Shown here piece by piece: positions 1 through 16,854 of a stretch of DNA of 16,854 nt (position 1 is the first letter of the stretch; each line of letters opens with the position of its first letter). The translations under genes were made by a program, and so were the position numbers. The notes under the pieces are model-generated. The model did no database searches and had not been told where the DNA came from. It saw nothing but the letters and a program-made list of their open reading frames with translations. This stretch comes from Hyphomonadaceae bacterium (lineage in GTDB: Bacteria; Pseudomonadota; Alphaproteobacteria; Caulobacterales; Aquidulcibacteraceae), in NCBI GenBank assembly GCA_003526465.1, contig DPWD01000397.1, positions 1 through 16,854 on the forward strand, written 5' to 3'.

Positions 1-61
1 GGGCCGCGCGGGATTGCGCGCGCCGTGTGGGCCGGCGAGTGGACAGACGCGCGCGCGGCGC

Positions 62-88
62 CTAACGCCCGGCTTCGGCCTAAGGAAG
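62..88 (+). promoter_or_regulatory. Degenerate SigF-like promoter match before sigF
   Basis: CTAACG at 62-67 is followed by 16 bases and GGAA at 84-87. This matches 7 of the 10 positions that the three strong sites in this window share, with the same spacing. Transcription from here would start only about 10 bases before the GTG at 103, so it may be chance. If the site works, it would allow weak autoregulation. The real promoter may lie left of the window. Confidence 0.15.
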
Positions 89-102
89 CGGCGGGCAAAT
101 GC

Positions 103-654
103 GTGAGTGACCTCGAACAGCAATTGCACAATTTGATGATGCGGGGCCTCGCCGGAGACGCCGGCGCGCACCGGCTCTTGCTTGAGCAATTGGGCGAGCG
201 CTTCCGCGTCTTTTTTCGCAATCGGATGCGCGTGGGCGATCCCAGCCACATCGAGGACTTGGTGCAGGAAACGCTCATCGCGATCCACACGCGCCGGGAG
301 TCTTACAATCCAGGACAGCCCTTGCGCGCTTGGGTCTACGCGATCGCCCGCTACAAGCTCATCGACCATTTTCGGCGGACCAGGACGACAGGCGTCGCCG
401 TGCCAGTCGATGAAGTGGTGGATATCTTTTCCAACGAGGAAGCCGACGCCTCAGACCCAGCGCGTGACGTTGCCGCCTTGCTTGACCGTCTGCCGCCCAA
501 ACAGCGCATGGCGATACGTTTGGTCAAGCTCGAGGAGCTTTCCATCCGAGAGGCGGCGAAGCGCACCGGCATGTCGGAATCGGACGTCAAAATTAGCATT
601 CACAGGGGCATGAAAAAGTTGTCGGCCTTGGTTGCAAAGGATGCGCAGGCATGA
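103..654 (+). CDS. sigF: ECF RNA polymerase sigma factor, SigF type
   Basis: This is a 183-residue group IV sigma factor that would direct RNA polymerase to stress promoters. Region 2 spans about residues 22-95 and includes the DLVQETLIAIH helix and the RAWVYAIARYKLIDHFRR stretch. Region 4 spans about 128-178, with LPPKQRMAIRL and a helix-turn-helix at SIREAAKRTGMSESDVK. I chose the GTG at 103, which gives MSDLEQQLHNLM and a normal ECF length; the same frame stays open upstream to 25. A purine-rich stretch at 82-88 is a distant Shine-Dalgarno candidate. The stop overlaps the nrsF start (ATGA at 651-654), so the two are translationally coupled. The DUF1109 partner and the three SigF-like promoters in this window point to the Caulobacter SigF group rather than another ECF class. 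The ECF assignment is sure; the SigF subtype is likely. Confidence 0.9.
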   Translation: MSDLEQQLHNLMMRGLAGDAGAHRLLLEQLGERFRVFFRNRMRVGDPSHIEDLVQETLIAIHTRRESYNPGQPLRAWVYAIARYKLIDHFRRTRTTGVAVPVDEVVDIFSNEEADASDPARDVAALLDRLPPKQRMAIRLVKLEELSIREAAKRTGMSESDVKISIHRGMKKLSALVAKDAQA

Positions 655-1286
655 AGACCGATGCGCTTATTGAGGCTTTGGCGAAGGAAATTGAGCCCGC
701 GCGCCCGGCCCGGACCCGCTGCCGCTTCACGCTTGCGGCGTTGGCCGGTGGGCTGCTGGCGGCGTGCGTTGTGGCGGCGCTGTTCGGCATTCGCGGCGAC
801 CTTGGCCAAGCGATGCCCGCCGTCATCGCCAAGACACTCTATTGCTTGGCCGCGGTCGCGGCTGCGGCGCCGCTCGCTTTTGTATTGTCACAGCCGAACA
901 CGAGGATGCGGGGCTGGCTTGCGCCCGCCGCGCTGCTGGTTGCGGCGAGTCTTGGCGTCGCGGCTTGGATCGTTGCGCAAACGCCAGCGGATGCGCGTTT
1001 CGATGTGTGGCTCGCGGGCGGCTTTCCTGAATGCTTGCGCCGCATTCCCATTTTGGCGACACCGGTTGCGGTGGCGTTGCTCTTCATTGTGCGCACGCTT
1101 TCGCCGACGCGGCTTACACTTGCTGGCGCGGCGGTTGGTGGGCTCTCCGGCGCCATCGCGGCCGTCGCCTATTCCTGGTTCTGCCCTGTCGATAGCGTCG
1201 CCTATGTCGCGACCTGGTATCTCTCGGCGATGCTGATTTGCGCGGGGCTGGGCGCGCTCTTCGGACGGTGGTTGCTGCGCTGGTAA
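651..1286 (+). CDS. nrsF: NrsF-family (DUF1109) membrane anti-sigma factor
   Basis: The 211-residue product has a short cytoplasmic N-terminus (about 1-25) and roughly six membrane helices (about 27-47, 58-80, 89-109, 133-150, 155-175, 184-208). It fits DUF1109/NrsF, the family that holds ECF sigma factors at the inner membrane. Cysteines sit at 24, 39, 65, 128, 178 and 197. C128 (in GFPECLRR) and C178 (in SWFCPVD) are 50 residues apart. That equals the spacing of the two Caulobacter NrsF cysteines (C131/C181, from memory) reported as needed for the cadmium and dichromate response. The start overlaps the sigF stop, as expected for a sigma/anti-sigma pair. I infer that it releases SigF on metal stress. 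Confidence 0.88.
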   Translation: MKTDALIEALAKEIEPARPARTRCRFTLAALAGGLLAACVVAALFGIRGDLGQAMPAVIAKTLYCLAAVAAAAPLAFVLSQPNTRMRGWLAPAALLVAASLGVAAWIVAQTPADARFDVWLAGGFPECLRRIPILATPVAVALLFIVRTLSPTRLTLAGAAVGGLSGAIAAVAYSWFCPVDSVAYVATWYLSAMLICAGLGALFGRWLLRW

Positions 1287-1293
1287 TCGTCGC

Positions 1294-1311
1294 CCGTGCA
1301 TTCCGGCACGG
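1294..1311 (+). terminator. Weak hairpin after nrsF
   Basis: CCGTGC (1294-1299) and GCACGG (1306-1311) form a perfect 6-bp stem with a 6-base loop, just after the nrsF stop. No run of T follows, so it is a poor intrinsic terminator. It could slow transcription or protect an mRNA end. Confidence 0.2.
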
Positions 1312-1390
1312 CATGAATCTTATTCCCCAATGGCGGTCAACGCGCCGGTCCGAACATGTTTCGAACGGCGATGGAGCAGGAACGCGCGTC

Positions 1391-2155
1391 ATGAACAGTC
1401 GAACAGGCGCCGAATCGCCGTCGGGAGGGCTGCCGAGAAGAGGGCGGTTAGTCTGGCGTCTCGCGCTGGCGGCGCTGATCGTCGCCGTCCTTGCGGCTGC
1501 CTGGCGATTTGGGCTCTTCGACCTCCTAAGTTTGGAGACGCTTCGCGAGCGCCGCGAGGCATTGCTGGGCTTTGTCGCCGCCCATCGTTATGCGGCGCTC
1601 GCGCTCTTCATCGGCGTCTACGCTCTGGCGACGCTGTTTGCGCTGCCCGGCGTGTTATGGATCACGATTGCGGGCGGCTTTCTATTTGGCCTGGCGACGG
1701 GCGCGTTGGCGACGGCCGTGGGCGCGACCTTGGGAGCGACGGGGCTCTTTCTTGCCGCACGTTATCTCTTCGCCGGCGCACTGCGCCGCCGCGCCGGCGG
1801 CTTTCTCGATCGGCTCGAAGCTGGATTTCAGCGCAATGCGATCTCCTATCTGCTGAGCCTGCGGCTCATCCCAATCGTGCCCTTCTTCGTTGCCAACATC
1901 GCACCAGCTTTTCTCGGCGTGCGCACGACGACGTTCGTGGCCACGACGTTCGTGGGCATCCTGCCGGGGGTTGTCGCCTATACTTGGATCGGTGCGGGCC
2001 TCGGCGCGATATTCGATGCAGGCGGCGCGCCCGATCTTGCGAGCTTCGCGCGCCAGTTGGCGCCGGCCTTCATCGCGCTCGGGCTCTTGTCGCTCGCGCC
2101 TGTAATCATCGGACGCTTTCGCACGAAGCCCTCATCGACAGATGTAAAGGACTAG
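1391..2155 (+). CDS. TVP38/TMEM64 (DedA superfamily) membrane protein
   Basis: The 254-residue inner-membrane protein belongs to the TVP38/TMEM64, or SNARE-associated Golgi (VTT domain), group. A helix at about 24-43 is followed by the VTT core: a helix around FALPGVLWITIAGGFLFGLATG, the gap-filling SLRLIPIVPFFVANIAPAFLGV re-entrant segment, and the GILPGVVAYTWIGAGLG segment. One more helix closes the C-terminus. The core is the family signature, and relatives are implicated in lipid scrambling or transport; the substrate here is unknown. The start at 1391 is preceded by a GGAGCAGGA stretch at 1373-1381. The frame is open back to 1238, but that extension lacks a family match. It lies 7 bases before an oxidoreductase gene, a pairing common in bacteria, so the two are probably co-transcribed. 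Confidence 0.85.
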   Translation: MNSRTGAESPSGGLPRRGRLVWRLALAALIVAVLAAAWRFGLFDLLSLETLRERREALLGFVAAHRYAALALFIGVYALATLFALPGVLWITIAGGFLFGLATGALATAVGATLGATGLFLAARYLFAGALRRRAGGFLDRLEAGFQRNAISYLLSLRLIPIVPFFVANIAPAFLGVRTTTFVATTFVGILPGVVAYTWIGAGLGAIFDAGGAPDLASFARQLAPAFIALGLLSLAPVIIGRFRTKPSSTDVKD

Positions 2156-2162
2156 CGGCGCC

Positions 2163-3620
2163 ATGCATGGACCCAACTTGCCGACCCGGGCGCGCATCAG
2201 CGCTGACGTCGCCATCATCGGCGCAGGCTCTGCGGGGCTGGTCGCGGCCTCTGGCGCTGCACAACTCGGCCTCAAAGTCGTGTTGTTCGAGAAGGGTGAG
2301 ATGGGCGGCGATTGCCTAAATTATGGCTGCGTGCCCTCCAAGGCGCTGATCGCTGCCGGACGCGCGGCGCAATCAGCGCGCAATGCGCACCGCTTCGGCG
2401 TGCACGCCAGCGCTCTAAGCATCGATTGGCGCGAAGTCGCCGCGCACGTGCGCGGCGTCATCCAGTCGATCGCGCCCGTCGACAGCCAGGAGCGCTTCGA
2501 GTCGATGGGTGTGACCGTCATACGCGAGGCAGCGCGATTTACCGGTTCACGAACTTTGGTCTCGGAAACAGCGGAAGTGCGCGCGCGCAAATTCGTCATC
2601 GCCACTGGCGCGCGGGCCTTCATTCCCCCCATCCCGGGACTTGGCGACGTCGACTATCTCACCAACGAGACCATTTTCGGCCTGAATGATCGGCCCCAAA
2701 GGCTGCTCATTCTGGGCGGTGGCGCGATCGGCGTCGAACTCGGCCAGGCTTTCCGGCGGCTCGGAGCCGAGGTGATCATTGTCGAGGCCAAGGAGATTCT
2801 GGCAAGCGCCGACGCAGACGCGCGCGCGGTCTTGCGCGAACGCCTGGAACTTGAAGGCGTCATGCTGCGCGAGAACGTCACAGTGGCGCGCGTCGAGCGG
2901 ACTGAGGACGGTGGCGCCCTCGTCGTGATCGAGGGTGCAAGCGGACAAGAAACCATTGCCTCAACGCACCTTCTTGTCGCCACTGGGCGGCGACCCGTCG
3001 TGGATGGCCTCGATTTGGACAAAGCCAGCGTCGGCTATGACGCGCGCGGCGTGCGTACCGACATTCGCCTGCGGACGAGCAATCCGCGTGTGTGGGCGAT
3101 CGGCGATGTTGCGGGGCGCGAACAATTCACCCACGCGGCGGGTTTTCACGGCGGTCTCTTCGTGCGCAACGCGCTCTTTCGTTTGTCGCGCGCCGGCGCC
3201 GACAGTACGCCCATTCCGCGTGTCGTGTATGCAGAACCCGAGCTCGCCGAAGTCGGATTGAACGAAGCGGACGCGCGCGCGCATTACGGGGCGCGCGTGC
3301 GCACACTGCGCTGGAGCCTTGAAGAGAACGATCGCGCCACAGCTGAGCGCGAGCAAGAAGGCTTTGCCAAGATTGTCGTTGCGCCCGGTGGTCGGGTGAT
3401 CGGCGGCGCCATCGTGGGCGAAGGCGCAGGCGACCTAATCGCCATTATTCAGTTCGCCATCGCTAACGGACTAAAGATCGGCGCTCTCGCCGCGCGTTTC
3501 CTGCCTGCGTACCCGACGCGGAGCGAAGTTGTGAAGCGCGCCGCTGGTCAGTATTTCGCACCCACGCTGTTTTCGCGAAAGACGAGAGCCGCGGTCGCTG
3601 TGCTGTCGCGCTTGCCGTGA
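2163..3620 (+). CDS. FAD-dependent pyridine nucleotide-disulfide oxidoreductase (mercuric reductase-like)
   Basis: The 485-residue protein is a class I flavin disulfide reductase. It has the FAD-binding GAGSAG at 20-25, the redox-active CLNYGC at 51-56, the NAD(P)-binding LGGGAIGVELG near 182, a second FAD contact at AIGDVAG, and a dimerisation domain to the end. The C-terminal position that holds the catalytic His in lipoamide dehydrogenase (HPT) is Tyr450 here (LPAYPTRSE). This YPT form occurs in mercuric-reductase-like proteins linked to TVP38 genes. There is no N-terminal HMA domain and no C-terminal Cys-Cys pair, so I would not call it true MerA. The substrate is unknown; a metal ion or a small disulfide are options. 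It is probably co-transcribed with the membrane protein upstream. Confidence 0.85.
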   Translation: MHGPNLPTRARISADVAIIGAGSAGLVAASGAAQLGLKVVLFEKGEMGGDCLNYGCVPSKALIAAGRAAQSARNAHRFGVHASALSIDWREVAAHVRGVIQSIAPVDSQERFESMGVTVIREAARFTGSRTLVSETAEVRARKFVIATGARAFIPPIPGLGDVDYLTNETIFGLNDRPQRLLILGGGAIGVELGQAFRRLGAEVIIVEAKEILASADADARAVLRERLELEGVMLRENVTVARVERTEDGGALVVIEGASGQETIASTHLLVATGRRPVVDGLDLDKASVGYDARGVRTDIRLRTSNPRVWAIGDVAGREQFTHAAGFHGGLFVRNALFRLSRAGADSTPIPRVVYAEPELAEVGLNEADARAHYGARVRTLRWSLEENDRATAEREQEGFAKIVVAPGGRVIGGAIVGEGAGDLIAIIQFAIANGLKIGALAARFLPAYPTRSEVVKRAAGQYFAPTLFSRKTRAAVAVLSRLP

Positions 3621-5257: not shown

Positions 5258-5271
5258 ACGCTGCGCTACGT

Positions 5272-5286
5272 ATTCCCGCTCGGAAT
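5272..5286. promoter_or_regulatory. Candidate second LysR box upstream of AhpD-like gene 2
   Basis: ATTCCCGCTCGGAAT is a perfect 5-bp inverted repeat (ATTCC/GGAAT, 5-base centre) with T-N11-A spacing. It matches 12 of 15 bases of the dyad at 4527-4541. It lies about 100 bases before the start of the second AhpD-like gene, where an activator could bind. Confidence 0.4.
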
Positions 5287-5382
5287 GACATGGTGCGCGC
5301 CGCGCGAGCTAATCGGCGAAGGCATGCGCGCCTAGCTTTGGGCGAGCCGGACACGCCGGCGGCGTCCAAAGGAGTCTCCCTC

Positions 5383-5946
5383 ATGGCCAAGTTCCAATTC
5401 CACACCCCGCAAACCGCGCCGGAAGCCGCGCGCGCCGCGCTCGAAGCCGCGCAAAAATCTTTGGGCTTCGTGCCTAACCTCTACGGTATGCTGGCGGAAA
5501 ATCCCGCCGCGCTTGAAGCCTATCAAACCTTGGCCGGCATCTTCGCCAAGGCTGGTTTCTCTCCGGTTGAACAACAGCTCATTCCGCTCATCGTCTCGGT
5601 CGAGAACCAATGCAGCTTCTGCGTCGGCGCCCACAGCGCGCTCTCGACCATGGCCAAGGTCTCGCCCGACATCATCAATGCGGTCCGCGACGGCGCCCCG
5701 ATCGGCGACGCCAAGCTCGAAGCGTTGCGCAGCTTCACGCTCAAAGTGATCCGCGAGCGCGGCTTCGTCGCCGATGCCGACGTCGCCCGCTTCCTTGAAG
5801 CGGGTTTCACTAAGGCGCACGTGCTTGGCGTCGTCTTGGGCGTCGCTTGGAAGACGATCTCCAATTACGCAAACCACCTTGCCGAAACCCCGCTCAACGA
5901 GGCCTTCGCGCCCTTCGCGTGGTCGCCGAAGCAACGCGCCGCGTGA
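5383..5946 (+). CDS. AhpD-like / carboxymuconolactone decarboxylase family protein 2
   Basis: This 187-residue alpha-helical protein has the AhpD-type CxxCxxxH motif at Cys77, Cys80 and His84 (QCSFCVGAH). The N-terminal GFVPNLYGMLAENPAALEAY is typical of the larger carboxymuconolactone decarboxylase-like group. The start at 5383 follows AAAGGAG at 5368-5374 with 8-base spacing. It differs clearly from the AhpD-like protein just upstream, so the pair is two subfamilies rather than a recent duplication. Separate dyads upstream of each suggest shared LysR control. A strong hairpin follows the stop. Peroxidase or thiol-redox activity is inferred from the motif only. Confidence 0.88.
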   Translation: MAKFQFHTPQTAPEAARAALEAAQKSLGFVPNLYGMLAENPAALEAYQTLAGIFAKAGFSPVEQQLIPLIVSVENQCSFCVGAHSALSTMAKVSPDIINAVRDGAPIGDAKLEALRSFTLKVIRERGFVADADVARFLEAGFTKAHVLGVVLGVAWKTISNYANHLAETPLNEAFAPFAWSPKQRAA

Positions 5947-9242: not shown

Positions 9243-9268
9243 TTCGGGAGCTCATGTCAGGCGGTTAC
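9243..9268 (-). promoter_or_regulatory. SigF-type promoter for the TonB receptor
   Basis: On the minus strand, GTAACC (9268-9263) is followed by exactly 16 bases and CGAA (9246-9243). This equals the motif I recall for Caulobacter SigF. The predicted start lies near 9237, giving a leader of about 38 bases to the ATG at 9199. It is back to back with the bufA1 promoter; 46 bases separate the two -35 elements. Confidence 0.78.
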
Positions 9269-9314: not shown

Positions 9315-9340
9315 GTAACCGGTGAGGGGCGCCTCTCGAA
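9315..9340 (+). promoter_or_regulatory. SigF-type promoter for the bufferin operon
   Basis: GTAACC at 9315-9320, exactly 16 bases, then CGAA at 9337-9340. A start near 9346 would give a leader of about 50 bases to the ATG at 9397. That also excludes translation from the upstream in-frame codon at 9322. The spacer shares GG-N-GAGGG with the site at 12196. Confidence 0.82.
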
Positions 9341-9396: not shown

Positions 9397-9762
9397 ATGA
9401 TCCGCACCACCCCCATCGCCGCGGCGTTGTTCGTTGGCCTGTCGCTGGCGACGTCGCCGGCGGTCGCGAAGCCCAATAGCCAATTGTCCATTTCCGCCGA
9501 AGCCTCGGCCGAAGCGCGCGCGGCGTTCGCGTCATGGGTTCAGTCTGATCGCATCCAGGGTCGCCGCGAACAATGCTACGGCATCGCGCTTGCGGGTGAG
9601 AACGATTGCCGCGCGGGTGCGGGCACGACGTGCGCGGGCACCTCGACGGTGAATTTCCAGGGCAATGCCTGGACCTACGCGCCGGCCGGCACCTGCCAGC
9701 ACATCCAGACCCCGGCGGGCGCGGCCTCGCTCGAAGAGCTTGCACGCAACAACGCGCGCTAA
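9397..9762 (+). CDS. bufA1: Bufferin-type RiPP precursor (DUF2282), BufA1
   Basis: The 121-residue precursor has a Sec signal peptide (1-24, AVA|KP) and a DUF2282 core. Four cysteines lie at 60, 71, 79 and 100 in [30 protein letters not shown] and APAGTCQHI. In the bufferin family, a DUF692 enzyme and its DUF2063 partner convert core cysteines to thiooxazoles. As I recall, the two central cysteines of bufferin 1 are converted and the outer two form a disulfide. The mature peptide is exported and binds copper. The signal peptide fits periplasmic action. The ATG has CAGGAG six bases upstream and follows a SigF-type promoter. The modifying genes follow at once, as in the gig (gold-induced) clusters. 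Family and context are clear; metal binding here is inferred. Confidence 0.93.
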
Positions 9763-9780: not shown

Positions 9781-10635
9781 ATGATCCCTCTCGCCTCCCC
9801 ACCGCCTCTCCCCCAGCGGGCGGGCATCGGGCTCAAGCCCGATCATTATCGCGCGATCCTCGACAGCGCCGCCGAAGGGCTTTGGCTTGAGGCGCACCCG
9901 GAAAATTACATGGTTGACGGCGGTCCGCGCCTTGCCTGGCTTGAGGCATTGCGCGAGCGCCACCCGCTTTCATTTCACGGCGTCGGCGCTTCCCTGGGCG
10001 GACCCGATCCGATCGATTCCGATCATCTGGGGGCGCTGAAGTCGTTGATCGCGCGCTTCGAGCCGGCCGTGGTTTCCGAACATGTCGCCTGGTCGGCCGC
10101 TGGCGGGCGCTATTTTGCCGATCTTTTTCCATTGCCGCGCACTGACGAAGCCTTGTGTTGGCTCGCCGAGCGCATTGACGCGTTTCAGATGGCGCTCCGA
10201 CGTGCAATCCTGATTGAGAATCCGTCCGTCTATCTCCCGCTCAAATCGGAAATGGATGAACCGGATTTCCTGGTCGAACTCTGTAAACGCACAGGGTGCG
10301 GCCTCTTGCTTGACGTCAACAATGTTTTCGTCAGCGCCAACAATACCGGTTTCGACGCCGCCGCCTATATCGACGCTATCCCGGGTCATCTGGTCGGCGA
10401 AGTGCACTTGGCCGGTCATGAAGCGGACGCGCGCCGCGGCGCGAACCTTTTGATCGACACGCACGGCGCGCCGGTCGCGGAACCGGTCTGGGCGCTCTAC
10501 GAACGGCTGATCTCCCGCATTGGGTCGCGCCCGACCCTGATCGAGCGCGACGCCAATATTCCCGCTTTTGACACGCTCATGGCCGAGCGTGGCCGCGCCG
10601 ACCTCGCGCTTGCGCGTCAGCTGGAGGCGGCGTGA
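9781..10635 (+). CDS. bufB: DUF692/MNIO multinuclear iron oxidase, BufB
   Basis: The 284-residue TIM-barrel enzyme is of the MNIO (DUF692) family, which uses non-haem iron and oxygen to modify peptide cysteines. Visible family blocks are GIGLKPDHY (15-23), HPENYM (39-44), SFHGVG (64-69), SEH (99-101), IENPS (145-149), LLLDVNN (175-181), EVHLAGH (207-213), IDTHG (225-229) and IERDANIP (254-261). His66, His101, Glu146, Asp178, His209, Asp226, His228 and Glu255 are the likely metal-site residues by position in these blocks. ACGAGGA lies 7 bases before the ATG. It is 18 bases after the precursor gene and overlaps bufC by a TGATG junction. The expected job is thiooxazole formation on BufA1 in the cytoplasm before export. 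Confidence 0.94.
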   Translation: MIPLASPPPLPQRAGIGLKPDHYRAILDSAAEGLWLEAHPENYMVDGGPRLAWLEALRERHPLSFHGVGASLGGPDPIDSDHLGALKSLIARFEPAVVSEHVAWSAAGGRYFADLFPLPRTDEALCWLAERIDAFQMALRRAILIENPSVYLPLKSEMDEPDFLVELCKRTGCGLLLDVNNVFVSANNTGFDAAAYIDAIPGHLVGEVHLAGHEADARRGANLLIDTHGAPVAEPVWALYERLISRIGSRPTLIERDANIPAFDTLMAERGRADLALARQLEAA

Positions 10636-11420
10636 TGCTGTCTGGTTATTATCAAGCGTTTCTCGATGCCGTTGTCGGGACGGATCCGAGGATGCTTGGC
10701 GCTTATCTCGAGGATCGCGCCGCCGTTTCAAACGCGCTCGTTTATCGCAACACCACCTTTCGCGGGGCCGCAGACGCGCTCGCAACCGCATATCCGGCGG
10801 TCGCGCGGCTCGCGGGCGAGGTCTATTTCGAACATGTCGCCATCGCCTATGTCGAGGCCTCGCCCCCGCGGCAACGTTCTTTGGTCGGTTACGGCGAAGG
10901 CTTTGCGGACTTTCTGGAGGACGCGCCGGGCATTGCGGAAGCGCCTTATCTGCCCGACGCCGCGCGGCTCGATTCTGCCTGGCTGGCCGCTCATCGTGCG
11001 CCAAGCCAAGCCCCACTTGCGGCCGCCGATCTTGCGGCGCTCCGCCCCGAGCGGCTCGCTGAACTGGTCTTGAAGCTTCATCCCAGCGTGCGCCTGCTTG
11101 AACTGGGGTGGAACGTGCATGACGCCTGGAAGCACAACCGCGCCGACGCGCCGGCCAAGACCCACCAGGTCTTACCCGAACGCCAATACGTCATGCTGTG
11201 GCGCCCAGCTCATGAAGTCGAAACGCAAGTGCTGAGTGCGGCCGAGGCGCGGTTTTTCCAGACGCTGGCCTGCGGCGGCGCGCTCGGCGAAGCCGCTGAG
11301 GATGCGCTGGCCGTGTCGCAGGATTTCAATACGACCCTTGTCTTCGCCGGCGCGCTCGAAGCGGGCGCCTTCGCAGCCGAACAACCGGATTTGGATGGAA
11401 AGCGGGAGGAATGGTGGTGA
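10635..11420 (+). CDS. bufC: DUF2063 partner of the MNIO enzyme, BufC
   Basis: The 261-residue protein has the DUF2063 N-terminal domain, with ALVYRNTTFRGAADALATAYPAVARLAGEVYF at about 33-65 and PYLPDAARLDSAW near 103-115. A C-terminal domain follows from about 150 (VLKLHPSVRLLELGWNVHDAW). The family is labelled as a putative DNA-binding domain. In MNIO systems, however, such partners bind the precursor peptide and present it to the enzyme. The ATG at 10635 overlaps the bufB stop (TGATG); a GTG one codon earlier is also possible. Its own stop lies inside the start region of the next gene, so all four buf genes are coupled. Confidence 0.92.
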   Translation: MLSGYYQAFLDAVVGTDPRMLGAYLEDRAAVSNALVYRNTTFRGAADALATAYPAVARLAGEVYFEHVAIAYVEASPPRQRSLVGYGEGFADFLEDAPGIAEAPYLPDAARLDSAWLAAHRAPSQAPLAAADLAALRPERLAELVLKLHPSVRLLELGWNVHDAWKHNRADAPAKTHQVLPERQYVMLWRPAHEVETQVLSAAEARFFQTLACGGALGEAAEDALAVSQDFNTTLVFAGALEAGAFAAEQPDLDGKREEWW

Positions 11421-11899
11421 CCACATCAGCTTTGACGCCGGCCAAAGGACCGTTCGCCGCCGCGAAAGCGCTTTATGGACAAGCGGCGAAGGTGGCGGGG
11501 AAGTTGGATTGGCTTGCGCTTCTAGGCGCGCGCCTCTTGGTGGCGCGGGTCTTTCTGCTTTCAGGTCTGACCAAATGGGACGGTCTCACCATCCGGGAGG
11601 ACACGTTCTACTTGTTCGCGGACGAATACTTCGCGCGCTACGCGCTCCCTGCGCCGCTCATCAACGTTTTCGCTGTCGTGGCCTCCATTGCCGAAGTCAG
11701 CTTGCCAGTGCTCCTCATCCTCGGGCTTTTCACGCGCGGCGCTGCACTCGGGCTTTTGATCATGACGCTGACGATCCAAATCTTCGTCTATCCTGACGCT
11801 TGGTGGACTGTGCACGCGTGGTGGACGGCGGTGCTGTTGCTCATCGTTGTGAGCGGACCGGGCGCGGGCTCTCTCGACCGACGCCTGAAGCTCGATTGA
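11417..11899 (+). CDS. bufD: DoxX-family membrane protein, BufD
   Basis: The 160-residue protein has about four membrane helices. It starts after a short basic N-terminus, with LLVARVFLLSGLTKWDGL (the DoxX signature segment), then INVFAVVASIAEVSLPVLLILGLFTRGAALGLLIMTLTIQIFV and WWTAVLLLIVVSG. DoxX proteins commonly close buf/gig operons; their role is unsettled but redox- or quinone-linked. I chose GTG 11417, because GGAGG at 11405-11409 is 7 bases away and GTGA overlaps the bufC stop. ATG 11411 and GTG 11414 are in frame but too close to that ribosome site. The gene is in the bufferin operon and should share its SigF promoter. Confidence 0.85.
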   Translation: MTTSALTPAKGPFAAAKALYGQAAKVAGKLDWLALLGARLLVARVFLLSGLTKWDGLTIREDTFYLFADEYFARYALPAPLINVFAVVASIAEVSLPVLLILGLFTRGAALGLLIMTLTIQIFVYPDAWWTVHAWWTAVLLLIVVSGPGAGSLDRRLKLD

Positions 11900-11906: not shown

Positions 11907-12182
11907 GTGTTCGAATCGCTCGACGCCGCCACAAAGCGGGATGACGAAGCGCCGCACGATGGCCGCGCTTGTGTCGCCGAGGCAAAGACCCCTGGCGGCC
12001 GGCGGGGCGACGTGCGCCGCGCGCTTTGGGTGGCGCTTGCCGTGGGCAGCCTTCTCAACCTCATCAATCAAGGCGAGGCGATCTTCGCAGAGGGGGAGTT
12101 CAATTGGGTGAAGGCGGCGTTGACCTATGTCGTGCCGTTTTTCGTCAGCCTGCATGGCGCAGCGCAGGCGCGGCGGCCATGA
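11907..12182 (+). CDS. Small NrtS-like membrane protein
   Basis: The 91-residue protein resembles NrtS, small nitrate/nitrite transport proteins first described in cyanobacteria. The match is in VALAVGSLLNLINQGEAIF and NWVKAALTYVVPFFVSLHGA, two membrane helices at about 39-56 and 66-85. Residues 1-35 are polar and look unrelated. The start is uncertain: GTG 11907 lacks a clear ribosome site, and GTG 12012 would keep just the two-helix part. It begins 7 bases after bufD and so probably sits at the tail of the bufferin operon. A nitrate role is not supported by context; a generic small transporter or assembly part is as likely. Confidence 0.7.
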   Translation: MFESLDAATKRDDEAPHDGRACVAEAKTPGGRRGDVRRALWVALAVGSLLNLINQGEAIFAEGEFNWVKAALTYVVPFFVSLHGAAQARRP

Positions 12183-12195
12183 ACGCTGGGCCGGC

Positions 12196-12221
12196 GTAAC
12201 CGGCGAGGGCGCAACCGCGAA
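12196..12221 (+). promoter_or_regulatory. SigF-type promoter for the DoxX/esterase/mtnP operon
   Basis: GTAACC at 12196-12201, exactly 16 bases, then CGAA at 12218-12221. A start near 12228 gives a leader of about 25 bases to the ATG at 12253. The first bases of its spacer (GGCGAGGG) closely match those of the bufA1 promoter (GGTGAGGG). A 5-bp inverted repeat (12190-12194/12200-12204) overlaps the -35 and is probably incidental. Confidence 0.78.
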
Positions 12222-12252
12222 GTCGATTTCGAGGACAGGGCGGAGACTGGTT

Positions 12253-12738
12253 ATGAATGCGCGCACAATCGCCGGATGGAGTCTCGCTCTGGGGCTCGCT
12301 GGGGCCTTCGTCTTCATGGTGGGGTTGCCCAAATTCATGGGCCCCGCCCCCAATCCGATCTTTGCGCTGATCGCTGGTCGCTCCGGGATCGATTTCTTCG
12401 AACCCTATGTGCGCTACGCCACGGGAGCGGGGGAGCTGACCGCGGCTGCGTTGTTGGTCTGGCCGGCAAGCCGGCGCCTCGGCGCGCTCCTGGCCGGCGC
12501 AATCAGCCTGGGCGCAATTGGCTTTCATCTTTCGCCTTGGCTCGGCATTCGCATTCCCGACATGGGCAGGGTGAGCGACTTGCTGCAGCAGGGAACGAGC
12601 GTCGCCGACATTGATGCTATGGGCTTGCCCACGGACGGCGGCGCGCTCTTCGCAACGGCGGTGGTGTTTCTCCTCGTCTCGATCGCCGTCTTCTTCTTGA
12701 GCGGCGAGCAGGCGCACAGAGCCAAGCAGACTTCATAA
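12253..12738 (+). CDS. DoxX-like four-helix membrane protein
   Basis: The 161-residue protein has about four membrane helices, with FVFMVGLPKFMG near 17-28 and FFEPYVRYATGAGELTAAALLVWP near 49-72. These match the K-F-x-G and Y-x-T-G-x-x-E positions of DoxX-like proteins. A soluble stretch (about 97-125) separates the last two helices. The ATG at 12253 follows GGCGGAG with about 7-base spacing; an open frame reaches back to 12127 but would run over the promoter. It is distinct from the DoxX protein of the bufferin operon. It is the first gene after a SigF-type promoter and 4 bases from the esterase gene, so it probably leads that five-gene operon. Confidence 0.78.
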   Translation: MNARTIAGWSLALGLAGAFVFMVGLPKFMGPAPNPIFALIAGRSGIDFFEPYVRYATGAGELTAAALLVWPASRRLGALLAGAISLGAIGFHLSPWLGIRIPDMGRVSDLLQQGTSVADIDAMGLPTDGGALFATAVVFLLVSIAVFFLSGEQAHRAKQTS

Positions 12739-12742
12739 AGTC

Positions 12743-13909
12743 ATGCCGCCCACATCCGCCAAGGCGCGGCCCAAAGCGGCCAGCGCCATCCATCCCATAC
12801 TCGTCTGGAACGAGACCACGGCCCAGTTTGCCCGTGAGGAGCTGCAACGGCGTGTCTACGGCCGGATTCCGCGGGTAGATTTGCAGATCGACGAAATCTC
12901 GCCGCTGACTGAGCCGCGCACAGAGATGAATGTCGAGCAATGGCGTCTGGTTTCGCCCAGTCGCGGCAAGGCCTTCGCTCTTGACGTGTTGCTTGTCTGG
13001 CCGCGGGTCGCGCCTCCTCGCGTGGTGCTGCTTGCACAGAAATTCCGGCACGCGGACGCGACGATCGGCGACTGCACGGCGGCGTTGCTCGGAAACGCAG
13101 GCGCGAAGGGCCTGCGCCTACGTCTGCGCGAATGGATTCTCGGCGCCCATATACATGCGCCGCCGTTTCACGACCTGATAGGCGCAGGTGTCGGCGTCGT
13201 GCTTTTCCATCCGGCTCAGCTTGTGCCTGATCATCCCGCGCACTCGGCGCCAATCATGGAGGCGATGTCGGATGGAATAGCAGCGCCTGATCGGGGAGGG
13301 GTGTTGGCTCATTGGGCGGGGATCACGAGCGCGTTGCGCGCGCACGTCTCCGAGCGCTTCAAGGCGACGCCGATCGTGGCTTGGGGCCATTCCCGACACG
13401 GCAAAGCAGCACTTCTAGCGACCGCCTTTGACGAAGGCTTCGCCGGCGCCGTCGCGCATCAGTCGGGCCGGTTTGGCGCATCGCTCACGCACGGCGCGCG
13501 CGGTGAATCGGTCCGCCAGATCGCGCGGGCTTTTCCGCACTGGTTTTGCCAGCGTTTTCAGGACGACCGCACGCAGCACTCAGGAGAGATAGATCAACAC
13601 CACCTGCTGGCGCTGATCGCACCGCGGCCGGTTCTGCTGGGCAACGCCACAAGCGATTTCTGGGCCGACCCAAAAGGCGCGGTGCGGGCGGCACTTGCGG
13701 CAAGCGCGGCTTATCGCGCGCTTGGTGCGGCGGGTCTTGCTGAGCGCCCTGGGATCGCGGGCGACATCGCGGTCTTCGAACGCGCAGGTTGGCACGGGAT
13801 CAATGCCGAGGATTGGCGCTGTTTTCTTAGTTTTCTCGACGCAAAATTCACGCCGTTGCAGAGCGGCGCCAGCGCCACGCTGCGCACTTTCGTTGCGAGC
13901 GGCGCATGA
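12743..13909 (+). CDS. CE15-like alpha/beta-hydrolase, apparently cytosolic
   Basis: The 388-residue serine hydrolase resembles glucuronoyl esterases (CE15) and related acetyl-esterase-like proteins. Ser217 lies in WGHSRHGKAALLA, and His351 in GWHGINAEDWRCFLSFLD. Other CE15-like blocks are HQSGRFGASLTH, FPHWFCQRF, and DQHHLLALIAPRPVLLGNATSDFWADPKG. CE15 enzymes are normally secreted and carry GCSRGGK or GHSRGGK, whereas here the N-terminus (MPPTSAKARPKAAS) has no signal peptide and the third motif position is His219. A role in plant cell-wall breakdown is therefore unlikely. The substrate is unknown, and context with the next genes suggests a small-molecule ester. The start is 4 bases after the previous stop, and the stop overlaps the next start (ATGA). 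Confidence 0.8.
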   Translation: MPPTSAKARPKAASAIHPILVWNETTAQFAREELQRRVYGRIPRVDLQIDEISPLTEPRTEMNVEQWRLVSPSRGKAFALDVLLVWPRVAPPRVVLLAQKFRHADATIGDCTAALLGNAGAKGLRLRLREWILGAHIHAPPFHDLIGAGVGVVLFHPAQLVPDHPAHSAPIMEAMSDGIAAPDRGGVLAHWAGITSALRAHVSERFKATPIVAWGHSRHGKAALLATAFDEGFAGAVAHQSGRFGASLTHGARGESVRQIARAFPHWFCQRFQDDRTQHSGEIDQHHLLALIAPRPVLLGNATSDFWADPKGAVRAALAASAAYRALGAAGLAERPGIAGDIAVFERAGWHGINAEDWRCFLSFLDAKFTPLQSGASATLRTFVASGA

Positions 13910-14835
13910 CGCAACCATCTTGGCTTTCTACGTTTTCGATAAGGGATGGCGTCGTCCACTATCATGACACCGGGGCGCGCATCCGACTTAACGGTGCGCT
14001 GATGCGCGACGTGTTTGCTTGGCTCACCTATTATGTTCCGATCCGGCTCAACGCGGCCATTCGTCAAATCGTTAGGCCAGGACCCCGCCTTTGGTTCATG
14101 CCGAAGCCCCCGCCGCCCTGGTATCTCATTTGGAACGCAAGCGCCTGGATCGGCGCGCGCGCGGCATTGTCGCCGGAAAAGGCTGATGTCTGCGTTTACT
14201 TCGAGGACGCCACTTGGGTATCGGCGAGCGATGCGGCGCTCCTTCAATGCATCAACGGTCGGTGCCGCGATGTTTCCAAGACGCGCGTGGGCGAGGTATT
14301 CGCGGCGGTTTTCGGTTACGAGCTTCTGATCGATCCAGAGCGCGCCGAGGGCGCCGCCGTGGAAAAGGGCGAGCTCAACGGCGCCCACGATGGTGCAATT
14401 GTCCATTGTCCGACGCCGCGCAAGTCCGGACGCGTATATCAAAAGCTGATCGAAACCGGCGAGGGCGATCTGGTCGAGGATCTGCGCACGCCTTGTGTCG
14501 GCGGCGAACCGGTCCTCGTCTTCATCAAGCGGCGAAGCCGCAATGAGCGTTTTGCCAATACCAACACGGATGTGGCGCTCGCTGATGTGCAAAGCGTGTT
14601 TTCAGCCGACGAACTGAAGCGCATCCGCACCTTTGTGCGCGAGATGCAGCTCGATTGGGGTGGGCTCGATATTCTTCGCGAGCGCCAGAGCGGGCGGCTC
14701 TACATTGTCGACGTCAACAAGACCGACATGCCGCCCTTGAAGTTGCGCTTCTTCGACAAGATGAGAGCGAGCCGGCAATTGGGGAAGGCGCTGCAAGAAC
14801 TGGTGTGCGCCATGAATGAGCGAGGCGCAGCGTGA
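13906..14835 (+). CDS. Unrecognised ATP-grasp-like protein
   Basis: I do not recognise this 309-residue protein as a named family. The C-terminal third has features of an ATP-grasp active site: VLVFIKRRS (about 204-212, a lysine-bearing strand), LDWGGLDILRERQSGRLYIVDVNKTDMPPL (about 247-276, with Asp-x-Asn at 269-271). It also has an N-terminal half rich in aromatics (WLTYYVPIRLN, PPPPWYLIWN) without a signal peptide. ATP-grasp enzymes join a carboxylate to an amine or thiol using ATP. It overlaps the esterase gene by ATGA and the metallo-hydrolase gene by GTGA, so it belongs to one translation-coupled unit with them. The fold assignment is tentative. Confidence 0.65.
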   Translation: MTQPSWLSTFSIRDGVVHYHDTGARIRLNGALMRDVFAWLTYYVPIRLNAAIRQIVRPGPRLWFMPKPPPPWYLIWNASAWIGARAALSPEKADVCVYFEDATWVSASDAALLQCINGRCRDVSKTRVGEVFAAVFGYELLIDPERAEGAAVEKGELNGAHDGAIVHCPTPRKSGRVYQKLIETGEGDLVEDLRTPCVGGEPVLVFIKRRSRNERFANTNTDVALADVQSVFSADELKRIRTFVREMQLDWGGLDILRERQSGRLYIVDVNKTDMPPLKLRFFDKMRASRQLGKALQELVCAMNERGAA

Positions 14836-15752
14836 TCCCGTTTCGCAAGAATTTCGTGTTCGAGTACGAAAAACCACAGGTCGTATCGCCTTTGATCCGG
14901 CGTGTGGTCGCGCGAAACGGTGGGCGGTTCACCGGGCCCGGCACGGGTACGCTCATCATTGGACACGGGATCGTCGCGGTTGTGGATCCTGGTCCCGATC
15001 GTGACGATCATTTCGAGGCCTTGCAGGCGGCGTTGGCCGGAGAGCGCGTGTCGCACGTGCTGGTCACGCATCAGCATATCGACCATTCCTCATGGGGCCG
15101 GCGCCTGGCGGACGCTTACGGCGCGCTCTTGTGCGGCAGCGTTGGCGTCGTCACAGACGAACATGGCGGCGCCGTTCGCGAAGAAGCAGGTGACGACGAT
15201 CGGTTTTCCCCGGATGTGGAGCTTCGCGACAATTGGAGCGCTCACGGGGAGAACTGGACGCTCAGCGCGGTGCATACGCCAGGACACACGGCCACACACT
15301 ATTGCTTCGCCGTCGAGGAGGAAAACACACTCCTTTGCGGCGATCACATCATGGCCTGGTCGACAAGCATCGTCAGTCCGCCCCACGGACACATGGGCGA
15401 TTATTTGACCAGTCTCGCGCGCACGCGCGACGCCAATTTCGATCGCCTCATTCCAACCCACGGCGCCGACATTGTAGACCCCGACCAATTCATCGAGGCC
15501 TATATCGCCCACCGCCTCGGGCGCGAGCGCGATATCCTGGACCTCGTGCGCGCTGGCGTCTCGCAGACGAAGGACATTGTGCAAGTGCTCTATGCCGATA
15601 TCGATCGCGCGCTCCATCCGGCGGCGATGCATTCGGTATGGGCTCATCTTATCCATTTGACGGAGCAGGGGTCTGTGGTCGCGTCACCTGCGCCCGGACT
15701 CGATGCGCATTATAGCCCCGCCGAACAAACCTCGCAGGAGCCATGGGTGTGA
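14832..15752 (+). CDS. MBL-fold metallo-hydrolase
   Basis: The 306-residue protein is a metallo-beta-lactamase-fold hydrolase resembling the LACTB2/glyoxalase II-like group. It has the metal ligands HQHIDH at 80-85 (H80, H82, D84, H85), His148 within HTPGH, Asp171 in LLCGDHIM, and His210 in IPTHGAD. A C-terminal helical winged-helix-like domain (about 225-290, ILDLVRAGVSQTKDIVQVLY) is typical of the LACTB2 type. The start GTG overlaps the previous stop as GTGA. The metal site looks intact. The substrate is unknown, and placement between an ATP-grasp-like gene and mtnP suggests a thioester or phosphoester intermediate. Confidence 0.88.
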   Translation: MIPFRKNFVFEYEKPQVVSPLIRRVVARNGGRFTGPGTGTLIIGHGIVAVVDPGPDRDDHFEALQAALAGERVSHVLVTHQHIDHSSWGRRLADAYGALLCGSVGVVTDEHGGAVREEAGDDDRFSPDVELRDNWSAHGENWTLSAVHTPGHTATHYCFAVEEENTLLCGDHIMAWSTSIVSPPHGHMGDYLTSLARTRDANFDRLIPTHGADIVDPDQFIEAYIAHRLGRERDILDLVRAGVSQTKDIVQVLYADIDRALHPAAMHSVWAHLIHLTEQGSVVASPAPGLDAHYSPAEQTSQEPWV

Positions 15753-16627
15753 AGCACTGGAAGATCGGCATCATCGGCGGCTCGGGGCTCTATGATCTCG
15801 AGCGGTTACAAGATCCGTCATGGCGTGAGATCAGTTCCCCGTGGGGCATGGCGTCTGATGCGGTGCTGGTGGGAGCGCTGGCTGGCGTCGAGCTGGTGTT
15901 TCTACCCCGGCACGGCCGTGGCCATCGTCTCGCACCCCAAGAAGTGAATGCGCGCGCAAACATTGATGCGCTGAAGCGGCTAGGCTGCACCGATGTGCTG
16001 GCTGTCTCGGCGGTGGGTTCGCTGCGAGAGGACCTGGCGCCAGGCCGGCTGACCGTCGCGCGCCAATACATTGACCGCACGCGCCAACGACCGGCGAGCT
16101 TTTTCGGTGAGGGCGTCGTCGCACACGTTTCACTTGCTGACCCGGTTTGTCCAAGGCTCAGCCGCTTGATCATCGAGGCGGGCCGCAGCGCTGGCGCCGA
16201 TATCGCCGATCAAGCGACCTATCTTGCGATTGAGGGACCGCAATTTTCAACGCGCGCTGAAAGCCGTTTGTACCGGCAATGGGGCGCCGACGTGATTGGG
16301 ATGACTTCGATGCCCGAGGCGCGTCTCGCGCGCGAGGCGGAGCTGCCCTACGCCAATCTCTGCATGGTGACCGATTATGATTGTTGGCGCAGCGCCGAGG
16401 CCAGCGTCGATGTGCCAGAGGTGTTGCGGATCATGGCCGCCAATGTCGTCAAGGCCAAGACGTTGATCGAGAGCTTCGTCGCGAACCTGCCGCGCGAGAG
16501 GGCCCCATCCCCGATCGACGCTTGCCTCGATCACGCCATCATCAGTGCGCCGGAGCATTGGAGTCCATCCGCGCGCGCTAAACTTGACGCCGTCGCCGGC
16601 CGCAGGATGAGCGCGGGGCCGCGCTAG
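15749..16627 (+). CDS. mtnP: S-methyl-5'-thioadenosine phosphorylase
   Basis: The 292-residue enzyme cleaves methylthioadenosine with phosphate to adenine and methylthioribose-1-phosphate, the entry to methionine salvage. Signature blocks are GIIGGSGLYDL, LPRHGRGHRLAPQEVNARANI (phosphate site), SAVGSL, TYLAIEGPQFSTRAES, IGMTSMPEA, and TDYDCW. The last favours methylthioadenosine over the inosine-type variants. I chose GTG 15749: AGGAG at 15736-15740 is 8 bases away and GTGA overlaps the previous stop. ATG 15743 is in frame but only 2 bases from that site. No other methionine salvage gene is visible here. The 3' end overlaps the convergent transferase gene by four bases (CTAG). Confidence 0.93.
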   Translation: MKHWKIGIIGGSGLYDLERLQDPSWREISSPWGMASDAVLVGALAGVELVFLPRHGRGHRLAPQEVNARANIDALKRLGCTDVLAVSAVGSLREDLAPGRLTVARQYIDRTRQRPASFFGEGVVAHVSLADPVCPRLSRLIIEAGRSAGADIADQATYLAIEGPQFSTRAESRLYRQWGADVIGMTSMPEARLAREAELPYANLCMVTDYDCWRSAEASVDVPEVLRIMAANVVKAKTLIESFVANLPRERAPSPIDACLDHAIISAPEHWSPSARAKLDAVAGRRMSAGPR

Positions 16628-16854
16628 AAGCGCAGACGAGCGCTCACGCGCGCCAAGCTTGCTGCATCGTCGACGTCTTCGAGTTCGCGCAACATCGCGG
16701 TTCGCCGGCCGGCGAGATTGGCGAGCACATCGGCCAGCGTGTTCGGGGTCGACCATCGCACATTCGCGAACGGCGGGTGCTTCCGGGCGCGCCGGCTTAG
16801 TCCAATCAGCCAAAGGCCGCCGTCTCTCGCGGGCCCGAGCACGGCCTCGGCGCG
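16624..16854 (-). CDS. DUF2064/TIGR04282-type transferase, 3' part only
   Basis: The last 76 residues of a minus-strand gene run off the right edge of the window. They read EAVLGPARDGGLWLIGL, then FANVRWSTPNTLADVLANL, then LRELEDVDDAASL. This is the C-terminal signature of the GT-A-like TIGR04282 (rSAM/selenodomain-associated or arsenosugar-linked) transferases: DGG-x-W-L-I-G-L, W-S-T, and E-x-x-D-V-D. The GTG at 16840-16842 is internal, because the frame continues to the window edge and fits the family. The substrate cannot be judged from this fragment. Its stop codon overlaps the mtnP stop. Confidence 0.75.
   Translation of the reverse strand, partial: RAEAVLGPARDGGLWLIGLSRRARKHPPFANVRWSTPNTLADVLANLAGRRTAMLRELEDVDDAASLARVSARLRF

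Follow-up and report, generated by a model that had tools for sequence, protein, structure and literature searches.

Membership of a five-gene operon from a Hyphomonadaceae bacterium in a SigF-type (NrsF-controlled ECF) regulon is well supported at the level of sequence, and we see about an even chance that the operon, besides belonging to that regulon, forms an arm of a SigF island joining a bufferin (copper-binding peptide) cluster to a TIGR04282/TIGR04283 arsenosugar-type module. The module comprises TVP38, a MerA-like FAD oxidoreductase, a radical SAM protein (rSAM), two glycosyltransferase-like proteins and an MTAP of its own, with ArsM in some genomes; "arsenosugar" is part of the NCBIfam name of TIGR04282 and TIGR04283 and stands here for a putative function. 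The case draws on the promoter motif, the gene order, the shared module genes, the MTAP clade, and the recurrence of motif and module genes in other families. The window, meaning the whole 16,854-nt stretch of DNA that was analysed, carries the following features.

1..654, + strand, SigF-type ECF sigma factor, reading frame open where the contig begins, with the NrsF gene next to it
651..1286, + strand, NrsF anti-sigma factor (PF06532, 158.5 bits)
1238..2155, + strand, TVP38/VTT-domain membrane protein (PF09335, 69.3 bits); frame open from 1238, the real start probably lying downstream of it
2163..3620, + strand, MerA-like FAD/NAD(P) disulfide oxidoreductase adjoining TVP38 (profile search)
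6752-9199, - strand, TonB-dependent receptor, behind the third exact motif
9243..9268, - strand, third exact SigF-type motif, upstream of the TonB-dependent receptor gene (motif scan)
9315..9340, + strand, second exact SigF-type motif, upstream of the bufferin cluster (motif scan)
9397..9762, + strand, DUF2282 bufferin precursor with four Cys (Pfam profile; start is the likely ATG)
9781..10635, + strand, MNIO bufferin maturase BufB (NF050167, 359.9 bits, cut-off 310)
10632..11420, + strand, DUF2063/HvfC-like MNIO partner protein (DUF2063 60.9 bits; HvfC below cut-off)
11411..11899, + strand, DoxX of the bufferin cluster (52.7 bits, cut-off 23.6)
11907..12182, + strand, NrtS-like small membrane protein (NF038050, 48.2 bits, cut-off 25)
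12196..12221, + strand, exact SigF-type promoter motif GTAACC-N16-CGAA (motif scan)
12253..12738, + strand, DoxX/MauE-like small membrane protein, 161 aa, first gene of the operon (MauE below cut-off)
12743..13909, + strand, CE15 (glucuronoyl esterase)-like alpha/beta hydrolase, 388 aa (profile and structures)
13906..14835, + strand, RimK/ArgX-type ATP-grasp protein, 309 aa (predicted fold)
14832..15752, + strand, MBL-fold metallo-hydrolase with BLACT_WH domain, 306 aa, HxHxDH present (Pfam profiles)
15743..16627, + strand, MTAP-family nucleoside phosphorylase of the module clade (TIGR01694), 294 aa (ATG 15743) or 292 aa (GTG 15749)
16624..16854, - strand, TIGR04282 (arsenosugar-type) glycosyltransferase gene truncated by the contig end, C-terminal part only (43.2 bits for the fragment, cut-off 134)

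The five genes (12253-12738, 12743-13909, 13906-14835, 14832-15752, and 15743 or 15749 to 16627) are as tightly packed as an earlier note on this DNA had described. Of the gaps it gave (4, -4, -4 and -4), the first three stand, and the last is -10 from the ATG start of MTAP or -4 from the GTG start; the shorter GTG form fits because 23 of the 26 closest MTAP homologs are 289-293 aa long. The gene types it named hold for CE15, ATP-grasp (as a fold), MBL and MTAP, while the DoxX/MauE likeness of the first product is weak, with no DoxX match in Pfam and 19.4 bits to MauE (cut-off 27); a DoxX-like gene also fills the slot ahead of ATP-grasp in seven named loci. Judged by its sequence, the second product is clearly of the CE15 type, scoring 52.9 bits with GCE_fung (cut-off 27), matching CE15 structures to E 1.2e-36, and combining the profile with both the catalytic Ser and His. 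Ser217, Asp305, Asp309 and His351 are invariant, and Gln240 lies at what we take to be the canonical Glu position of the CE15 triad, Gln rather than Glu occupying this presumed triad position in all 30 of 30 CE15-like sequences. No signal peptide was visible in this protein on inspection by eye. The third product scores 15 bits with Pfam RimK, below the cut-off of 21, and its ATP-grasp fold was confirmed by structure prediction.

Upstream of the operon, GTAACCGGCGAGGGCGCAACCGCGAA is an exact GTAACC-N16-CGAA at 12196-12221 (+), placed, as the earlier note had it, 31 nt before the ATG at 12253, and lying within a 70-bp gap downstream of the NrtS-like gene (stop 12182); it was compared side by side with 14 other exact sites. 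The window holds three exact sites against 0.06 expected (200 shuffles), each 31-56 nt upstream of a start, and sigF-nrsF lies on the same contig, which bears out the claim that a SigF-type promoter motif heads the operon. The bufferin cluster beside it is complete (DUF2282 precursor, BufB, DUF2063 partner and DoxX), and read-through from there into the five genes may occur. Across the host genome, sigF-nrsF is present with three NrsF matches, and an exact motif also precedes DoxX-like and YHS genes adjoining an NrsF fragment.

The Caulobacter crescentus SigF regulon, in the available sections of its descriptions (PMC3511200, PMC8224329), consists of sigF-nrsF and eight further genes in three units, namely two bufferin-type clusters and the YedY/MsrPQ genes; it is induced by Cr, Cd and Cu, and a sigF mutant is copper-sensitive. 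It shares with the window the GTAACC-N16-CGAA motif, the sigF-nrsF operon and the DUF2282-MNIO-DUF2063-DoxX cluster, but as described in those sections it lacks ATP-grasp, CE15, MBL, MTAP, ArsM, rSAM and TIGR04282/83 genes, so that the gene combination does lie, as had been proposed, outside the described regulon of C. crescentus. Bufferin clusters, in the available part of a survey (PMC12452194), share with the window the four-Cys DUF2282 precursor, a BufB-type MNIO, the DUF2063 partner, DoxX and sigF-nrsF; the survey reports extra conserved genes at extremely low proportions, and "arsen-", phosphorylase and ATP-grasp have no occurrence in its main text as available.

The TVP38/VTT and MerA-like FAD oxidoreductase genes, and the end of the contig inside a TIGR04282 gene, had been overlooked by the earlier note. 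Together with that terminal gene, which lies tail to tail with the MTAP gene, they provide a context for the operon MTAP. This protein reaches 296.9 bits with the TIGR01694 equivalog model (cut-off 274.85), matches solved MTAP chains, and scores 398.4 bits under the narrower PRK08931 model, whose cut-off is 437. It falls in a clade with the MTAPs of TIGR04282/TIGR04283 modules, apart from housekeeping MTAPs (support 100/97).

Further parts of the module were found elsewhere in the host genome. On contig C3, an exact motif lies 6 or 18 nt upstream of a TIGR04283 gene (216 bits, cut-off 182), and next to it comes a TIGR04282 gene that the contig end truncates; with the Phenylobacterium RI_411 protein as reference, residues 9-129 are on C3 and residues 125-194 at the end of the window, as complementary broken ends. 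A TIGR04282 match over cut-off is also present on contig C12. The host's rSAM copy (contig C203) sits in a housekeeping context, ArsM was not found in this 57%-complete MAG, and the best match there to canonical ArsS (TIGR04167) was 58.9 bits against a cut-off of 300.

In RI_411, nine of 15 motif matches, all nine of them exact, fall within 23.1 kb (binomial P = 5.6e-18, for a stretch picked post hoc); eight lie 11-105 nt upstream of where an island gene begins, taken as its ORF start or likely ATG, and the ninth overlaps an uncertain N-terminus. The motif-bearing units are ATP-grasp, the MTAP unit, ArsM, rSAM-TIGR04283-TIGR04282, TVP38-FAD oxidoreductase, DUF547-NrtS, sigF and bufferin. Its TIGR04282 copy scores 135.7 bits (cut-off 134), and its ArsM is 58-64% identical to ArsM adjoining TIGR04282 in five other genomes, two of which have canonical ArsS. 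Seven of the 34 rSAM loci that were read have MTAP, FAD oxidoreductase, TVP38, rSAM, TIGR04283 and TIGR04282 all together; they belong to G089, RI_411 and five genomes of the window's genus. An exact motif lies upstream of TVP38 and ArsM but not of MTAP in G089, and upstream of FAD oxidoreductase-rSAM in G545; in the window's genus the only counterpart is an N15 site with one mismatch, present at four of five loci. Among 101 relatives, 59 carry rSAM and 17 carry ArsM, with rSAM in 17/17 ArsM-positive versus 42/84 ArsM-negative genomes, although the rSAM loci read were mostly ordinary housekeeping contexts. Arsenosugar clusters (ArsM, ArsS, TIGR04282, TIGR04283) share with the island TIGR04282/83, the FAD oxidoreductase, TVP38 and sometimes MTAP; unlike them, the island has another radical SAM protein, SigF-type motifs and a link to bufferin, and no canonical ArsS was found. 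The radical SAM protein adjoining the module scores 56.6 bits with TIGR04167 (cut-off 300), and ArsS exceeded this cut-off in two of 17 genomes (G563 and G376, both of other classes) and in none of 15 alphaproteobacterial genomes tested.

An ATP-grasp-MBL pair is ordinary in Caulobacterales and kin, with MBL directly downstream of ATP-grasp in 62 of 80 named loci; in the window operon the pair is joined to CE15, DoxX and MTAP. ATP-grasp is 39-55% identical in loci L111-L188, YHS, DoxX-like and ATP-grasp genes are consecutive in seven loci, CE15 lies near ATP-grasp in only two of 80 (L109 and L119), and CE15, ATP-grasp and MTAP appear, judging by the matching lengths of the contigs they hit, to recur together on metagenome contigs. 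The earlier note had proposed looking for the motif upstream of orthologous operons: it is kept in RI_411, upstream of both ATP-grasp and the MTAP unit, and absent at ATP-grasp in the other 79 of the 80 named loci.

For the island we infer an arsenic substrate and a ligase role for the ATP-grasp protein. Copper or a similar soft metal would activate SigF, and SAM-dependent chemistry would yield a 5'-deoxyadenosine bearing a 5' substituent, most probably a dimethylarsenical adduct and possibly MTA, which MTAP would phosphorolyse to adenine and a 5-substituted ribose-1-phosphate. The TIGR04282/TIGR04283 proteins would then transfer, or build on, this sugar. More conjecturally, the CE15-type hydrolase, the MBL hydrolase and the RimK-type ATP-grasp ligase might tailor, conjugate or unload the product, and the DoxX-like protein might act at the membrane.

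A serious alternative, which we nevertheless consider unlikely, is salvage of SAM by-products: arsenic would play no part, MTA or 5'-deoxyadenosine-type products would be recycled by a SigF-controlled MTAP, and under copper stress the operon would mend both sulfur and redox damage. That the enzyme passes the general MTAP model and matches solved chains suits this account, as does the presence of MsrPQ and a DoxX among the SigF targets listed in the available text of PMC8224329; moreover, four genomes of the genus (G001, G008, G019 and G020) have no MTAP match besides that of the module, which so probably serves MTA there too. Against it, the host has a second MTAP homolog (contig C38), which makes the window copy an additional one, the module MTAPs cluster together and are tied to TIGR04282/83 and rSAM, and in G376 an MTAP gene adjoins canonical ArsS. 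The proposal of the earlier note that the operon makes a sulfur-containing small molecule, read here as one that buffers metals, such as a thiol formed by the ATP-grasp ligase, seems improbable: no sulfur-assimilation or Cys-ligase gene was recognised within the operon, none of the 62 named loci in which ATP-grasp and MBL are paired has an MTAP or carries the motif in the 300 nt upstream, and the neighbourhood favours the TIGR04282/TIGR04283 module, although MTA or another 5'-substituted adenosine may be the compound handled.

That the motif arose by chance, and that the operon is read from a different promoter or co-transcribed with the bufferin cluster, strikes us as very improbable, even though exact motifs also occur within coding sequence (for example in the host's ATP-grasp paralog on contig C347) and genome-wide counts give the idea some footing. 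With spacers of 15-17, the host genome has 14 matches versus 17 for the reversed control, so one lone match carries little weight; with N16 only, there are 10 versus 4, and across 18 genomes counted such matches exceed the control in only seven and are at or below it in 11. The chance reading is countered by the three exact sites on one contig at 31-56 nt ahead of a start, by the plausible start downstream of seven of the host's 10 N16 sites, and by the motif likewise lying upstream of related genes in RI_411, G089 and G545.

A bolder version of the island reading, tentative and on balance rather doubtful, is that in Caulobacterales and kin a single island for copper and arsenic stands under SigF control, pairing a copper-chelating RiPP with a pathway to organoarsenical sugars. 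In that pathway a radical SAM protein other than ArsS would take the place of ArsS and a dedicated MTAP would release arsenoribose-1-phosphate; in the window lineage, the cytoplasmic CE15-type esterase, RimK-type ligase and MBL hydrolase would form a conjugation branch that arsenosugar pathways are not known to have. We are not aware of any description of a link between copper-binding peptide genes and arsenosugar-type genes in a SigF island. If true, it would extend a regulon that is small and well studied, and so far covers copper peptides and the repair of methionine sulfoxide, to a module of specialised metabolism, give the little-studied TIGR04282/TIGR04283 module a regulator and a nucleoside phosphorylase of its own, suggest a radical SAM candidate for cases that lack ArsS, and predict cross-talk between copper and arsenic responses.

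On re-reading of the sequence, the motif, the distances and the gene order that an earlier note had described for a five-gene operon ending in methylthioadenosine phosphorylase (MTAP) proved correct, while the size of the final overlap varies with the start codon assumed (−4 with a GTG at 15749, −10 with the MTAP ATG at 15743). The window is the complete contig C286 of a genome with 57% completeness. According to PMC3511200, the motif GTAACC-N16-CGAA is a SigF site known from experiments in C. crescentus; 0.06 exact copies would be expected by chance across the whole window, in which the following features were read.

Features of the window
Start of the contig: sigF and nrsF
9243-9268, minus strand: exact motif, 43 nt before a TonB-dependent receptor gene
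9315-9340, plus strand: exact motif, 56 nt before the likely ATG (9397) of the bufferin precursor
12196-12221, plus strand: exact motif before the operon
12253-12738, plus strand: DoxX-like gene
12743-13909, plus strand: CE15 esterase-like gene
13906-14835, plus strand: ATP-grasp gene
14832-15752, plus strand: MBL-fold gene
To 16627, plus strand: MTAP gene
Also on the contig: a TVP38-FAD oxidoreductase pair

The TonB-dependent receptor (6752-9199, minus strand), divergent from the bufferin cluster and with its own exact motif, may serve metallophore uptake. A tandem pair of CMD/AhpD-type peroxidase-related genes lies at 4658-5946, and CMD genes also occur within the SigF island of Phenylobacterium sp. 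RI_411 described below. The operon may also be transcribed by read-through from the bufferin genes; a scan around 12183-12252 gave two terminator-like matches against 0.7 expected, one of them within the NrtS gene (12114-12133).

The motif by itself is weak evidence, because N16 counts exceed those of a reversed control in only 7 of 18 genomes: the window's own (G000, 10:4), RI_411 (G299, 13:1), G545 (11:4), G424 (9:6), G428 (8:7), G089 (4:3) and G073 (2:1). Counts are equal in G300 (8:8) and lower than the control in ten genomes, including all five genomes of the window's genus that carry the arsenosugar-type module (G001 1:9, G008 3:14, G019 3:12, G020 5:10, G024 3:18), so that by this comparison these five give no sign of the exact motif form in the genus. 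With a loose N15-17 spacer the own genome yields 14 matches versus 17 for the control. Whole-genome enrichment was accordingly rejected as an argument, which rests instead on where the sites lie and which genes they accompany. The window holds 3 of the 14 loose matches in 0.7% of the genome (binomial P = 1.4e-4, for a window selected because of them), and 7 of the 10 own N16 sites, including these three, precede a plausible start in the right orientation.

Exact N16 sites on other contigs of the own genome
C3: 6 or 18 nt before TIGR04283
C73: 56 nt before a DoxX-like gene followed by a YHS gene, with an NrsF fragment adjoining
C341: 29 nt before a 317-aa methyltransferase
C198: 22 nt before a 205-aa protein without family
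C297 and C347: within coding sequence
C386: nothing obvious downstream in the stretch taken

The C341 methyltransferase (locus L428, 202-1155) is SAM-dependent and of uncertain family. At the C73 locus (L003, 2-1585) the order is NrsF fragment, exact motif, DoxX-like, YHS; these last two genes (60% identical to the copy in locus L138 and 52-55%, respectively) are relatives of the pair preceding ATP-grasp in Phenylobacterium and Asticcacaulis. Exact motifs within ATP-grasp paralogs (own C347; loci L049, L052, L055, L062, L064 and L074) were set aside as conserved coding sequence, not promoters.

The gene content is clearest in RI_411 (loci L110 and L219-L221): of 15 loose motifs in that genome, nine fall inside 23.1 kb of one contig, all nine with the N16 spacer.

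Motif sites of the RI_411 island
Site 1: DUF547-NrtS
Site 2: TVP38-FAD oxidoreductase
Site 3: ATP-grasp
Site 4: peroxiredoxin-like gene with a CMD gene; overlaps an uncertain N-terminus
Site 5: sigF-nrsF
Site 6: bufferin cluster
Site 7: 161-aa protein, then MTAP
Site 8: radical SAM gene, then TIGR04283 and TIGR04282
Site 9: ArsM, then a Pit-type transporter and an FAD oxidoreductase

The RI_411 ATP-grasp protein is 56% identical to that of the window, its exact motif lying 14 or 62 nt before candidate start codons. MTAP and TIGR04282 stand tail to tail in RI_411. The window shows the same arrangement between MTAP and a TIGR04282 gene of which the contig end leaves only the last ~76 codons. On own contig C3, an exact motif is followed by TIGR04283 (216 bits, cut-off 182) and by a TIGR04282 gene broken at the contig end. 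Residues 9-129 of the RI_411 TIGR04282 protein are matched by C3 (58%) and residues 125-194 by the window end (61%). The two contig ends have 16 bases in common, after which C3 runs on for seven bases without a match, and a strict end-to-end overlap test between C3 and the window found none. These matches make it most likely that C3 and the window adjoin in the genome, in the joined order motif, TIGR04283, TIGR04282, then convergently MTAP, MBL, ATP-grasp, CE15, DoxX and motif.

A radical SAM protein 53-63% identical was found in 59 of 101 relatives, and 34 loci were read (33 of the 59 places plus RI_411). MTAP, a MerA-like FAD oxidoreductase (FADox), TVP38, TIGR04283, TIGR04282 and the radical SAM gene occurred together in 7 of the 34, namely in five genomes of the window's genus, G089 and RI_411; the others lie mostly in housekeeping contexts, including the own copy on C203. 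The five genus loci also carry DUF547; in G024, MTAP and FADox each match in two pieces, and in RI_411 TVP38-FADox lies farther along the contig from the other module genes. In front of TVP38, four genus loci carry GTAACC-N15-CGTA, a site with a single mismatch to the motif, and the fifth carries none. Exact N16 motifs precede TVP38 and ArsM, not MTAP, in G089, and divergent exact motifs stand beside FADox-radical SAM in G545 (another family of the same class). G424 and G428 carry the radical SAM gene, FADox, ArsM, an SDR-type gene and both transferases.

Across the phylum, TIGR04282 was matched in 146 of 299 genomes. In 40 neighbourhoods read, TIGR04283 was present in 25, FADox in 9, TVP38 in 6 and MTAP in 2; ArsM-like genes were found in 8 (58-64% identical in five) and radical SAM matches in 10 (61-64% identical in three, several others being canonical ArsS). 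In ~1.26 Mb (80 loci, two sets of 40) there were five exact N16 motifs, four beside module genes and the fifth in locus L303. In G563, of another class, DUF2063-type and DoxX bufferin-partner genes adjoin TVP38, FADox, both transferases, ArsM and a canonical ArsS (445 bits, cut-off 300), and no NrsF match was found; therefore, the association of bufferin-type and arsenosugar genes may extend beyond SigF. This neighbourhood (locus L348, 75-10254) holds the full canonical ArsS-ArsM-TIGR04282/83 cluster.

The association of the radical SAM gene with ArsM is real in the counts, the former being present in 17 of 17 ArsM-positive versus 42 of 84 other genomes (Fisher P = 5.7e-5, optimistic because the genomes are related). 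The radical SAM gene is adjacent to ArsM in L220 (10879-11895, in RI_411), L278 and L280; in L358 and L371 a single gene separates the two. The module protein matches the ArsS model weakly, over its N-terminal half only (56.6 bits, cut-off 300), and ArsS above the cut-off was found in none of 15 alphaproteobacterial genomes tested; the protein may stand in for ArsS. ArsM was not found in the own genome, at 57% completeness.

An MTAP tree was built from 45 rows: the window, the best MTAP loci minus six duplicate rows, the module loci, the own C38 copy and 11 hand-picked database proteins, 7 of which (all the metagenome ones) were picked for sharing longest-contig sizes with CE15; the G024 MTAP was omitted because it matches in pieces. 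One group (support 100/97) unites the window, the seven metagenome proteins, four genus-module MTAPs, RI_411 and G089, with the Methylocystis protein P0272 inside it. A family clade of 17 rows and the own second copy fall outside this group; the tree has several long terminal branches and some internal nodes of only moderate support. The module MTAP probably does the ordinary job too, since it is the only MTAP found in four genus genomes. The own second homolog (locus L417 on C38, 200-1026) matches in two pieces, which may reflect a misassembly or damage to the gene.

Related ATP-grasp genes in named records (80 loci kept of 166) are carried mostly by Caulobacteraceae, Hyphomonadaceae, Maricaulis and Robiginitomaculum types. 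The idea that SigF controls the common ATP-grasp-MBL pair was rejected, because in 79 of the 80 loci the 300 nt upstream contain no exact N16 motif. In locus L109, ATP-grasp (63% identical) and CE15 (36%) are convergent neighbours, and the sole motif there has an N15 spacer and lies on the other strand. Homology of the window DoxX-like protein with those before other ATP-grasp genes is suggestive at most (best phmmer E 0.013, small set); a YHS gene occurs in all seven DoxX-ATP-grasp loci. Another neighbour gene, of ~333 aa, is common to eight ATP-grasp loci (L124, L126, L130, L131, L133, L139, L142 and L145), and the open stretch at its position in L145 had no Pfam match. Plasmid-borne ATP-grasp copies were limited to two distant matches (identity ≤33%).

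Catalytic motifs of MBL and CE15 are present. CE15 Ser217, Asp305, Asp309 and His351 are kept in 30 of 30 sequences of its group, all of which have Gln where Glu is usual. A secreted lignocellulose esterase was rejected, as the window protein, unlike the copy in L119, has no hydrophobic N-terminal signal by eye; it and 15 printed relatives start without an obvious signal peptide on the same inspection. Metagenome co-occurrence was judged from the size of the longest contig reported per protein match. Among the closest CE15 matches (≥42% identity), 8 of 29 share that size with one of 119 ATP-grasp matches, versus 0 of 91 more distant ones; 9 of the 26 closest MTAP matches (≥70%) share it with one of 29 CE15 or 48 closest ATP-grasp matches, versus 1 of the remaining 94. 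Sizes 12034, 17738 and 51916 are common to all three lists, suggesting that CE15, ATP-grasp and MTAP recur together on metagenome contigs.

As described in PMC3511200 and PMC8224329, the SigF regulon comprises MsrPQ as well as bufferin-type clusters, and loss of sigF by mutation makes cells sensitive to copper. The accessible portion of an MNIO survey (PMC12452194) reports that bufferin clusters contain few additional conserved genes and mentions no arsenic, phosphorylase or ATP-grasp, and that of PMC12608789 names a purine nucleoside phosphorylase solely as a possible arsenate reductase. A search that misses most subscription journals found no literature linking ECF sigma factors with arsenosugars. 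We therefore rate this as a known regulon with a branch not found described in the literature searched.

At the sequence level, a shared promoter motif, co-localisation and the MTAP grouping connect the operon with the module, and TIGR04282/83 carry the NCBIfam name arsenosugar transferases. ArsM methylates arsenite and ArsS acts on dimethylarsinous acid; for an arsenosugar to form the base must first be lost, for which an MTAP/PNP-type phosphorylase is a natural candidate. SigF would switch on arsenosugar-type chemistry along with the copper peptide; the lack of ArsS above the cut-off in the 15 alphaproteobacterial genomes, the lack of ArsM in the incomplete own genome and the weak ArsS match of the radical SAM protein speak against this. 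ATP-grasp, MBL, CE15 and DoxX would, at a guess, form a conjugation and unloading branch.
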